From Chelatococcus sp. HY11 (GTDB lineage: Bacteria; Pseudomonadota; Alphaproteobacteria; Rhizobiales; Beijerinckiaceae), in NCBI RefSeq assembly GCF_018398335.1, contig NZ_JAHBRX010000001.1:2658001-2722000 (forward strand): 64,000 bases of DNA, written 5' to 3'. The translations under genes and the position numbers were made by a program. Below are positions 34,852 to 52,196 of this stretch, piece by piece (within the stretch, counting starts at the first letter, position 1; every line of letters starts with the position of its first letter). The notes under the pieces were generated by a model. That model saw only the letters and a program-made list of their open reading frames with translations. It made no database searches and was not told the origin of the DNA.

Positions 34852-34862
34852 GCGCCTTCGGG

Positions 34863-34911
34863 CCCCACCCGGCGGCTTCGCCGCCACCCTCCCCCAAAGG
34901 GGGGAGGGATC
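34863..34911 (-). repeat. Palindromic repeat type A, copy R1
   Basis: The two-hairpin unit in reverse: tail CCCCACCC, a hairpin GGCGGC-TTC-GCCGCC, then a hairpin CCCTCCCCC-AAA-GGGGGGAGGG and GATC. The same design in forward direction is copy F1. It begins 11 bases after the gcdH stop. Confidence 0.85.
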
Positions 34912-34970
34912 ATCCGAGCTAAACCGGACACGGCGATGCGATGAGCGACGCTGACGAGCGAGGCACCTCC

Positions 34971-35025
34971 GATCCCTCCCCTTCAGGGGAGGGTGGCCCG
35001 GCGCATCGCGCCGGGTCGGGTGGGG
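34971..35025 (+). repeat. Palindromic repeat type A, copy F1
   Basis: GATC, the hairpin CCCTCCCC-TTCA-GGGGAGGG, TGG, the hairpin CCCGGCGC-ATC-GCGCCGGG, then the tail TCGGGTGGGG. It is the mirror partner of R1 across a spacer of about 60 bases and lies just before the DUF559 coding core. Confidence 0.85.
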
Positions 35026-35087
35026 TTCCCCGCCGCCAACGTCGCTCGCCCCTCCCCACGACTCTTCCGCGCGGGTTGCGCCAGCAG

Positions 35088-35600
35088 ATGACCCCGCAGG
35101 AGGTCAAGGTCTGGAACTGGCTGCGTGAGGAGATCGTGCCGGCGGGCTTTCATTTTCGCCGGCAGGTGGCCATCGATCGCTACGTCGTCGATTTCGCCTG
35201 TCTCAAGCACCGCGTTGTCGTCGAGATCGATGGCATCCAGCATGGCTTCGACGATCATACAGCCGATCGGATCCGCGACTCCAAACTCGCAGCCCTCGGT
35301 TTCCGCGTCTTGCGTTTCACCAATGGCGACGTTGAGCGCGACAAGCGGGCTGTCATGGACACGATCTATGCAGCCTTGACTGCGGGTGGTCCCCACCCGT
35401 CGGCTTCGCCGCCACCCTCCCCCGAGGGGGAGGGATCCTCAGGCTGCACTGTCCGTCATGAAACACATGGCGTTCGCGACGCTGAAAAGCGAAGCACCGA
35501 TCCCTCCCCTCCAGGGGAGGGTGGCCCGGCGCTGAGCGCCGGGTCGGGTGGGGTTCCCCGCCGCCAGCCACATCCGCAGGGCTCGAAAGAGAGACAATGA
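35088..35600 (+). CDS. DUF559-domain protein (PD-(D/E)XK nuclease-like), framed by palindromic repeats
   Basis: The DUF559 domain runs from MTPQEVKVWNWLREE to about residue 100 (VMDTIYAAL). It has the VSR-like restriction-endonuclease core: IDRYVVDFAC, then VVVEIDGIQH, supplying the Asp and Glu-x-Asp positions. No stop follows the domain: the frame reads through repeats R2 and F2 (GGPHPSASPPPSPEGEG) and ends at 35600, where its TGA overlaps the ATG of the CoA-transferase gene. The start is unsure; the frame is open from ATG 34941 through repeat F1, and a TTG at 35076 fits the family N-terminus (LRQQMT). Function in this family is unproven. It separates gcdH from its expected partner. Confidence 0.72.
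   Translation: MTPQEVKVWNWLREEIVPAGFHFRRQVAIDRYVVDFACLKHRVVVEIDGIQHGFDDHTADRIRDSKLAALGFRVLRFTNGDVERDKRAVMDTIYAALTAGGPHPSASPPPSPEGEGSSGCTVRHETHGVRDAEKRSTDPSPPGEGGPALSAGSGGVPRRQPHPQGSKERQ
35391..35437 (-). repeat. Palindromic repeat type A, copy R2
   Basis: Tail CCCCACCC, the second hairpin degenerate (GTCGGCTTCGCCGCC), then CCCTCCCCC and GGGGGAGGG, and GATC. It follows directly on the DUF559 domain end. Same orientation as R1. Confidence 0.85.
35499..35553 (+). repeat. Palindromic repeat type A, copy F2
   Basis: Nearly identical to F1: CCCTCCCC-TCCA-GGGGAGGG, TGG, CCCGGCGC-TGA-GCGCCGGG, tail TCGGGTGGGG, then the same TTCCCCGCCGCC. The bases just before F1 and F2 are also alike (GCGACGCTGA, then AGCGA-GCACC), so the whole R-spacer-F module is a direct repeat on both sides of the gene. 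Confidence 0.85.
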
Positions 35601-50050: not shown

Positions 50051-50101
50051 GATCCCTCCCTGAAGGGGAGGGTGGCCTCGCGCCAGCGAGGTCGGGTGGG
50101 G
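50051..50101 (+). repeat. Palindromic repeat type A, copy F3
   Basis: GATC, CCCTCCC-TGAA-GGGGAGGG, TGG, a second hairpin CCTCGC-GCCA-GCGAGG, tail TCGGGTGGGG. It shares the design of F1 and F2 but with a changed second stem whose pairing is kept, which shows that the stem is under selection or was copied as a unit. Confidence 0.8.
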
Positions 50102-50174
50102 CCACGCGACCGGAGACGGCGCTATCCTGGCCGGCACGGGTTGCCATCTCCCAGTCAGTTTCGCGTCGGGTGGA

Positions 50175-50220
50175 CCCCACCCGGCGCCTGCGGCGCCACC
50201 CTCCCCTGAGGGGCGGGATC
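50175..50220 (-). repeat. Palindromic repeat type A, copy R3
   Basis: Tail CCCCACCC, GGCGCC-TGC-GGCGCC, then CCCTCCCC-TGA-GGGGCGGG and GATC. With F3 it makes an F-spacer-R pair with only 73 bases between, the same order that flanks the DUF559 gene but without any coding sequence. Confidence 0.8.
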
Positions 50221-51503: not shown

Positions 51504-51539
51504 CCCCTCACCCCGGCCCTCTCCCCGCCGGGGAGAGGG
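51504..51539 (-). repeat. Palindromic repeat type B, copy R1 (short)
   Basis: Tail CCCCTCACC, then the perfect hairpin CCCTCTCCCC-GCC-GGGGAGAGGG. The second hairpin of the full unit is missing. Confidence 0.8.
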
Positions 51540-51600
51540 AGAGCGGCTGGCATCGTTCGCCTTAGAGCAAATGGTAGCCGCCACGAGGACAGCCGTCTAA

Positions 51601-51646
51601 CCTCTCCCCGGCGGGGAGAGGTCGCGCCGAAGGCGCGGGTGAGGGG
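51601..51646 (+). repeat. Palindromic repeat type B, copy F1
   Basis: Hairpin CCTCTCCCC-GG-CGGGGAGAGG in the main, then TCGCGCC-GAA-GGCGCGG, and the tail GTGAGGGG. The order (first hairpin, second hairpin, G-rich tail) is the same as in type A, with different bases. Confidence 0.8.
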
Positions 51647-51658
51647 GGAGATCCATCG

Positions 51659-52014
51659 ATGCGAAAGGCGATTGTCCGCGCGCGGCAACTGCGCGCAAAC
51701 CAGACCACGCCCGAGGAAAAACTCTGGCATGTCCTGCGTCACCGCAAGCTGAATGGCCGTAAATTTCGCCGCCAGCATCCCATCGACCGCTTCATCGTGG
51801 ATTTTCCCCGCATCGAGGCGAAGCTCGTCGTCGAAGTGGATGGCGCAACGCATTCAACCGCCGCGGAGACGCTCTACGATCGAAACCGCGAGGCCATTCT
51901 GACGGCCGCCGGTTTTATGAGGTCCTGCGGATCGGCAATGCGGACATCTATGAGAGCATGGAGTTTGTCCGCGAAACCATTCTCGCCGCTCTGGAGCGTC
52001 GGGGAACGTGGTAA
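51659..52014 (+). pseudogene. DUF559-domain gene with frameshift, framed by palindromic repeats
   Basis: The frame from ATG 51659 encodes a DUF559 domain: QLRANQTTPEEKLWHVLRHR, then IDRFIVDFPRIEAKLVVEVD with GATH following. After AAGF at about 51916 the reading frame shifts: a net change of 2 extra bases (or 1 lost) in GGTTTTATGAGGTC. The other frame resumes the family C-terminus, EVLRIGNADIYESMEFVRET, and ends at TAA 52012-52014, directly before repeat R2. Unless the shift is a sequencing error or programmed, the gene is broken. DFP replaces the usual DFAC or DFVC here. Confidence 0.75.
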
Positions 52015-52058
52015 CCCCTCACCCGCGCCTGCGGCGCGACCTCTCCCACCGGGAGAGG
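52015..52058 (-). repeat. Palindromic repeat type B, copy R2
   Basis: Tail CCCCTCACC, CGCGCC-TGC-GGCGCG, then CCTCTCCCACCGGGAGAGG. It begins on the base after the restored-frame stop of the DUF559 pseudogene. Confidence 0.8.
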
Positions 52059-52114
52059 TTCAAGGTGGCGCTTCACCGGGAAGTTTCAGCACCCCACGGT
52101 AGATCGTTGGCGTC

Positions 52115-52150
52115 CCTTCTCCCCGCCGGGGAGAAGGACAGGATGAGGGG
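52115..52150 (+). repeat. Palindromic repeat type B, copy F2
   Basis: CCTTCTCCCC-GC-CGGGGAGAAGG, then ACAGGATGAGGGG; the second hairpin is missing. The change CTC to TTC in one arm is matched in the other, so the stem is intact. Confidence 0.75.
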
Positions 52151-52167
52151 AGAACGACCGATAAAGC

Positions 52168-52196
52168 CCCTCTCCCCCGGCGGGAAGAGGTGAAGG
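52168..52196 (+). repeat. Palindromic repeat type B, copy F3 (short)
   Basis: CCTCTCCCCCGGCGGGAAGAGG with tail TGAAGGG, an imperfect copy. It ends 7 bases before the ilvD stop and may serve as its terminator. Confidence 0.65.

Follow-up and report, generated by a model that had tools for sequence, protein, structure and literature searches.

Genes for predicted Vsr-like DUF559 nucleases are commonly flanked by inverted CTCCC-type palindromes in an arrangement comparable to REP-RAYT loci

The window that we analysed is the whole 64,000-nt stretch of Chelatococcus sp. HY11 at positions 2,658,001-2,722,000 of NZ_JAHBRX010000001.1 (genome of 6.95 Mb, labelled G000), and it contains both matches to the DUF559 profile (PF04480) found in the whole genome, at 35067-35378 (locus A) and 51671-51919 (locus B). 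At locus A, where the protein scores 108.6 bits against a profile cut-off of 20.6, the domain is surrounded by palindrome units of one family, in forward (F) and reverse (R) orientation:

34860..34911, minus strand: family-A palindrome unit R (outer, left), read from the window sequence
34941..35600, plus strand: listed open reading frame (ORF) of 219 aa, whose ends read through the repeats
34971..35025, plus strand: family-A palindrome unit F (inner), two hairpins, left end of the F-gene-R unit
35067..35378, plus strand: DUF559 (PF04480) domain A, predicted Vsr/EDxHD-type PD-(D/E)XK nuclease (profile and fold)
35388..35437, minus strand: family-A palindrome unit R (inner), right end of the F-gene-R unit
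35499..35553, plus strand: family-A palindrome unit F (outer, right)

The initial annotation had described this gene as lying between two R-F palindrome pairs that are duplicates of each other, and both parts of that description hold: all elements are in place, and the two R-F modules, separated by 528 bp, are true duplicates because their F-side spacers agree at 20 of 24 positions, a level reached by 0 of 20,000 shuffles. At the locus an F precedes the gene and an R follows it, the two cores being separated by 425 bp, and an outer R and an outer F lie beyond; this reads best as an F-gene-R unit nested between the outer R and the outer F. The likely protein is the domain plus little more, the 219-aa ORF running through the repeat modules on both sides, so that its translation includes palindrome-derived sequence, for example PSPSGEGGPAHRAGSGG. 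The ends of DUF559 entries that have tails of this kind are probably misplaced.

DUF559-A was found in 4/4 genus members compared, its nearest named relative being that of Chelatococcus asaccharovorans (82% identical, in a named GTDB set that may omit the window's own genome), and the order gcdH-DUF559-CoA-transferase recurs in records of C. caeni, Enterovirga, Chthonobacter and Pinisolibacter. The gene is an old resident that keeps one place across genera, and on this distribution the insert described earlier as splitting gcdH from the CoA-transferase gene is old and a recent insertion is rejected. No empty site for DUF559-A was found among the relatives compared, and dN/dS among its orthologues in three genomes is 0.19-0.24.

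Family-A palindromes read GATCCCTCCCC-loop-GGGGAGGG followed by TGGC-hairpin-GTCGGGTGGGG, and a second family, B, reads CCTCTCCCC-loop-GGGGAGAGG followed by a hairpin and GGTGAGGGG. In the 6.95 Mb of the genome the core of family A, GGGGAGGGTGGC, has 45 exact copies (0 for a reversed-pattern control), four of which lie no more than 200 bp from the DUF559-A domain; the B core has 31 copies (4 for its control), two of them at DUF559-B. Within the window, all seven matches to a family-B 16-mer with two mismatches allowed are at locus B, and the A core with one mismatch matches six times, four at locus A and two at 50051-50220. The repeats are GC-rich and, where inspected, mostly intergenic; as for the GT(A/G)G head that RAYT-associated REPs have beside the palindrome, by eye the outer ends of the units read GATCCC and GTGG is seen only at the inner end, and comparison by eye with the published description found neither the CGTC end nor the CCA tail of CGTC-tagged REPs. 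A known structured RNA was rejected, as no Rfam match reaches its gathering score.

Leaving aside the pair around the gene, the genome has 14 close pairs of core A, of which 11 are F-R, with spacings of 99-222 bp, and the DUF559 gene occupies the position that the spacer has in these dispersed F-spacer-R elements. Only three R-F pairs occur, two of which are the modules of locus A. The proposal that the R-F module is the mobile unit therefore fails on two counts, the prevalence of F-R pairs and the unrelated spacers at locus B described below. One gene-free element lies in the window:

50051..50220, no strand assigned: dispersed family-A element F-spacer-R, without a gene

This element is absent at the corresponding site of G055 and represented by a lone palindrome in G015. 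As a separate observation, G087 holds another repeat, of type GTGTCATCCCCGGC, at that site (L264, 8260-8560).

A different insert, a second element of about 60 bp with two hairpins, sits exactly in the tip of CTCCC palindromes: at the DUF559-A locus it is in one F copy in G015 (L155), in both in G087 (L161) and in none in G000 and G055. Similar inserts were seen by eye in or beside family-B palindromes (L042, L043 and L056 of G000; L264 near 15240), and the element may target the hairpin tip.

Locus B repeats the arrangement with the other family:

51504..51539, minus strand: family-B palindrome unit R (outer, left)
51600..51646, plus strand: family-B palindrome unit F (inner)
51659..52102, plus strand: DUF559 gene B as read, 147 aa, with its domain match at 51671-51919
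52015..52059, minus strand: family-B palindrome unit R (inner)
52115..52150, plus strand: family-B palindrome unit F (outer, right)
52169..52190, no strand assigned: extra degenerate family-B palindrome

The same order with a different palindrome family had been claimed for this locus, and this part stands; a duplication of the module is not supported, since the spacers agree at only 10 of 24 positions and 2,789 of 5,000 shuffles are equally good. A frameshift affects the last third of DUF559-B, the homologous frame being lost near 51916-51921, and its orthologue in G055 is open throughout. G015 lacks the gene at the corresponding site, where the outer R and F are still there, and provides an empty site; G087 carries about 5.5 kb of other DNA at this place.

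We then extended the comparison to 60 DUF559 loci, as 18-kb stretches picked from among the matches listed for 24 further genomes of this bacterial family (at most 40 contigs each); the flanks of nine had been inspected beforehand. The score of a domain was that of the best inverted repeat pairing the 300 bp to its left with the 300 bp to its right, and a score of at least 18 was called strong. Strong flanking repeats are found at 41/60 DUF559 domains, compared to 3/575 other ORFs and 5/3,240 sliding intervals, and are missing at the remaining 19; among control ORFs of 90-260 aa, 0/245 reach even a score of 16. A stem hairpin lies on each side, at most 400 bp away, at 35/60 DUF559 loci and 3/563 controls, at least two stem motifs are near 41/563 control ORFs, and 111 of the 182 CCYTCYCC-loop-GGRGARGG hairpins in all 60 stretches lie within 500 bp of the stretch centre.

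The same holds further afield. In a sample of named GTDB genomes, consisting of the best 80 of 171 loci for an A-clade query less five dropped at contig ends, 37/75 DUF559 loci score at least 18 (1/480 control ORFs) and 48/75 at least 14 (3/480), with at least L183-L185, L188 and L189 being the same places as L141, L149, L130, L107 and L131. Those at or above 18 include records of Flaviaesturariibacter (Bacteroidota), four Chloroflexota, two Binatota and one Marinimicrobia, one Desulfobulbaceae record scores 15, and the arms here are mostly CTCCC-type palindromes. Among the best-scoring Pseudomonadota loci outside the family, 12/27 reach 18 and 15/27 reach 14, compared to 1/54 control intervals. 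The association of DUF559 genes with palindromes is near certain, and the expectation that palindromes flank DUF559 more often than other genes is borne out.

The only Pfam domain in the DUF559-A protein is DUF559, together with an MTES_1575 nuclease model below its cut-off, and no known transposase domain was found in this search. An alignment of 35 of 81 sequences, from which L237 and L256 were dropped for a stop in translation and L223 and L229 by choice, covers a fragment of 125 residues; 13 of its positions are invariant, including E23, D53, E64, D66 and H70. The AlphaFold2 model (mean pLDDT 80) matches PDB entries 3hrl (E = 3e-7), the catalytic domain of I-Bth0305I (3r3p, 3e-5) and Vsr (1cw0/1vsr, 5e-3), and a sequence profile search of the PDB likewise finds 3hrl and 3r3p. 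On this modelling DUF559-A is predicted to have a PD-(D/E)XK fold of the Vsr type, close to I-Bth0305I, a homing endonuclease of the EDxHD class. Of the PDB sequence matches with E > 0.1 we set aside as chance hits all but Vsr and PvuRts1I, the discarded ones being enterotoxin B chains, and assignment to a defence system was rejected, the PADLOC matches being weak (15.2-19.3 bits). In Caulobacter, VsrA (CCNA_02930) has a DUF559 domain, and the SOS response in cells without the methylase ScmA is described as needing VsrA (PMC12907096); DUF559 proteins can therefore act on chromosomal DNA.

To relate repeats to nucleases we gave each locus the label of the stem most frequent there, A (CCCTCCCC), B (CCTCTCCC), C (CCTTCTCC) or the rarer D (CCTTCCCC), and placed the labels on a DUF559 tree of 71 rows, 68 of them labelled (82 loci minus L083, a short record, and minus ten without the domain by motif). 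Repeat class changes 12 times on this tree, compared to a mean of 28.3 for shuffled labels, and 0/200 shuffles are as low; the alignment is short and many forks are unresolved. Several DUF559 genes of the same genome (G036, G077 and G079) fall in different repeat clades, and the three rows of class D are unclustered. Linked inheritance of the gene with its flanking repeats, as well as near-copies, accounts for part of the signal, and a specificity of nuclease lineages for repeat classes is strongly supported. A third DUF559, in one clade and common to G015, G055 and G087 (L099, L124 and L140), which the matches found in the window's genome do not include, has A-type motifs without a strong inverted-pair arrangement.

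The repeats located elsewhere in a genome follow the same pattern. Core A has a median of 21.5 copies elsewhere in the ten genomes that carry it at an examined DUF559 and of 1 in the 35 others, and core C a median of 31 in 13 genomes compared to 1 in 32, a comparison that took in part of the DUF559 loci per genome. Exceptions are G108, with 69 copies of core A, and G105, with 76 copies of core C, which lack the respective core at the single DUF559 locus examined in each. In a dose sample of 119 genomes drawn from the larger family, in which up to ten DUF559 matches occur per genome, DUF559 is present in 79, as it is in 68 of 200 across the phylum. Seven of the 79 have weak matches (E value of 9e-10 or worse), were counted as negative, and are not repeat-rich, defined as at least eight copies of core A or C. 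With this count, 35/72 DUF559-positive genomes and 2/47 negative ones are repeat-rich (35/79 compared to 2/40 if the weak matches are taken as positive), and 37/72 positive genomes have fewer than eight copies of the two cores counted. Repeats per Mb are higher with DUF559 in 17 of the 19 genera that have both states and lower in two (g11 and g24). G051 and G109, the two repeat-rich genomes without DUF559, belong to one genus, in which a further genome, G010, has a DUF559 with an in-frame stop; this fits a recent loss of the gene. In genus g32, G070, which lacks DUF559, has no match to the element ends among the candidates scored, compared to many in G032 and G099, which have it.

A further sample comprised 40 genomes drawn from the larger family. 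Two genomes have diverged pairs of cassettes: G032 has two cassettes that are 85% identical over 505 bp, and G079 two that are 81% identical over 608 bp; all are palindrome-bounded, start and stop at the outer palindromes and have unrelated flanks. The paralogous proteins of G032 have a dN/dS of 0.065 (dS 1.1), so that both copies have stayed under selection. Searches with the G032 element ends, for which 40 candidates were scored per genome, identified seven gene-free units of 134-172 bp in G032, six of which match the element at its left as well as its right end; in the seventh the second end matches the left end inverted. At the site of a G032 cassette the flanks are joined by 49 bp in G099 and by 58 bp in G070, and a gene-free G032 element is present in G099 and absent in G070. 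The empty sites that had been called for exist for DUF559-B and, in two congeners, for the G032 element, and none was found for DUF559-A. Because the compared intergenic spacers have diverged, the borders of the empty sites cannot be read to the base, and target-site duplications sought at the cassette pairs and empty sites were likewise unreadable. Terminal inverted repeats bound a unit that is found at unrelated sites.

A parallel appeared in another nuclease family. Among 20 GIY-YIG stretches (L344-L363), ten of them inspected beforehand, small GIY-YIG genes of the same family are bracketed at 14/20 with a score of at least 14 and at 9/20 with at least 18, compared to 2/197 control ORFs at either level. 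Their repeats are mostly of other types, at least three being CGTC...CCAG. CTCCCC motifs accompany 53/60 DUF559 and 3/17 small GIY-YIG loci, and CGTC-type motifs 5/60 and 10/17; frames of UvrC size, which served as a control and include the 549-aa frame of L275, have 1/10 and 3/10, respectively, and these counts omit three truncated loci. With few loci, we regard the GIY-YIG and CGTC repeat parallel as a lead.

Taken together, we consider it probable that the DUF559 nuclease maintains or copies its own repeats, much as a RAYT would with an unrelated enzyme, the action on the repeats being what we infer. Gene and palindromes would belong to a single unit, F-DUF559-R, whose ends are inverted two-hairpin palindromes, and the shorter F-spacer-R elements would be non-autonomous derivatives that keep both ends and are without the gene. 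Each nuclease lineage would serve one palindrome class (CCCTCCCC, CCTCTCCC or CCTTCTCC stems, more rarely CCTTCCCC), presumably recognising the palindrome as a hairpin or cruciform and nicking or cutting at the unit ends, after which host replication and repair may place copies of F-R units at new intergenic sites, both in cis and in trans. The gene itself could be kept through vertical inheritance, as seen at locus A, and would copy itself only occasionally, much as is described for RAYT persistence.

Of the other explanations, one that we hold to be unlikely makes DUF559 a parasite akin to homing endonucleases, with the repeats as landing sites in palindromic elements that something else spreads. 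The homing endonuclease I-Bth0305I is among the closest folds, the gene is located inside an F-R element, and another palindromic element is inserted in the tips of these very palindromes, all of which would suit such a parasite; the repeats are, however, more numerous where DUF559 is present, within genera too, the cassette pairs occupy unrelated sites and not one homologous target, and a search for a mobiliser, limited to PF01797, found no match in 30 of the 37 repeat-rich genomes. Less probable still is a host role for the nuclease, in Vsr-like repair or in defence, with the palindromes as a regulatory or protective feature of the gene. The predicted Vsr-like fold, the purifying selection and the described dependence of the SOS response without ScmA on Caulobacter VsrA, a DUF559 protein (PMC12907096), point in that direction, yet such a role leaves the gene-free F-R elements, the palindrome-bordered cassette pairs and the lineage-specific repeat classes unexplained.

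That repeats merely gather near any small accessory gene, or serve as terminators there, is very improbable: their GC-richness and mostly intergenic location, the three bracketed ORFs among 575 controls and the 41 of 563 with at least two stem motifs nearby agree with it, whereas no control ORF of 90-260 aa (0/245) reaches a score of 16 and small GIY-YIG genes carry another repeat type. Mobilisation of the repeats by RAYT transposases, with DUF559 incidental, we give scarcely any credence and rejected, as PF01797, matched in 21/119 genomes, is absent from the window's genome, from three genus mates and from 30/37 repeat-rich genomes, 35 of those 37 having DUF559.

Returning to the reading in which the nuclease maintains or copies its own repeats, we judge the chances evenly balanced that it defines a widespread class of minimal transposable elements, with a single-domain Vsr-like nuclease as sole protein and CTCCC palindromes as ends and as miniature derivatives, alongside a parallel class of small GIY-YIG nucleases and CGTC palindromes, so that REPs would have been coupled to enzymes at least three times (HUH, PD-(D/E)XK and GIY-YIG). 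DUF559 is a common domain on whose role there is no agreement, and the source of many bacterial palindromic repeats is not known. Should the link prove functional, DUF559 and orphan repeats alike would be explained, RAYT would be one case of a wider principle and orphan 'Vsr-like' genes would have to be read differently. GIY-YIG proteins would likewise be candidate enzymes for the CGTC repeats, which, as described in PMC3733652, apparently lack a dedicated transposase. Among the papers listed in literature searches of a collection without preprints and most subscription journals, none was seen to join DUF559, COG2852 or GIY-YIG to REPs; two DUF559 papers that also mention palindromes deal, judging by title and abstract, with other subjects.

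Several known systems share parts of this picture. Caulobacter crescentus VsrA has the DUF559 domain and a nuclease-like effect in vivo, but is interpreted, in the account of PMC12907096, as a repair enzyme linked to a methylase, and the description drawn on here makes no mention of flanking palindromes. With I-Bth0305I (PDB 3r3p) and Vsr, a repair enzyme that nicks at a T:G mismatch within a methylase motif, DUF559-A shares the predicted nuclease fold and sequence similarity, whereas DUF559 was seen with neither an intron nor a conserved coding target and is flanked by dispersed repeats of its own; an EDxHD homing endonuclease inserts at one homologous target allele, in contrast to DUF559 pairs at unrelated sites. 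Insertion sequences with MITEs likewise have terminal inverted repeats, short derivatives with both ends and empty sites in relatives, but encode a known transposase domain, which the Pfam search did not find here. CGTC-tagged REPs, found mostly in alphaproteobacteria according to PMC3733652, are also palindromic and, as far as that description goes, apparently without a recognised dedicated transposase; they differ in the CGTC end and CCA tail, which are missing in the window's repeats, and in this bacterial family it is small GIY-YIG genes that CGTC-type repeats bracket.

The closest parallel is the REP-RAYT system (REPtron, REPIN). RAYT genes are described as flanked by inverted REPs, with which they co-evolve and whose number correlates with their presence (PMC2817692), and as single-copy and vertically inherited (PMC8049555). 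Both systems have an ORF between inverted palindromes that abound elsewhere in the genome, and dispersed non-autonomous repeat doublets (PMC2817692, PMC8049555, PMC3116915), and both, going by the same descriptions, show co-variation of enzyme and repeat, gene presence that tracks repeat number and long persistence at one place. RAYT is an HUH tyrosine transposase (PF01797), whereas the enzyme here is a predicted Vsr/EDxHD-type PD-(D/E)XK nuclease (PF04480), the CTCCC palindromes that make up the repeats have a second hairpin, and up to ten DUF559 matches can occur in one genome, compared to RAYTs described as single-copy. In most cases tested DUF559 loci have the genomic features of RAYT loci, with a different enzyme, and the initial comparison of a REP-associated nuclease cassette to RAYTs is strongly supported by the bracketing of 41/60 DUF559 domains compared to 3/575 other ORFs, movement of the repeats by the nuclease being the part that we infer. 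In its mix of persistence and occasional copying, too, DUF559 appears by analogy to resemble, in part, what has been described for RAYTs.
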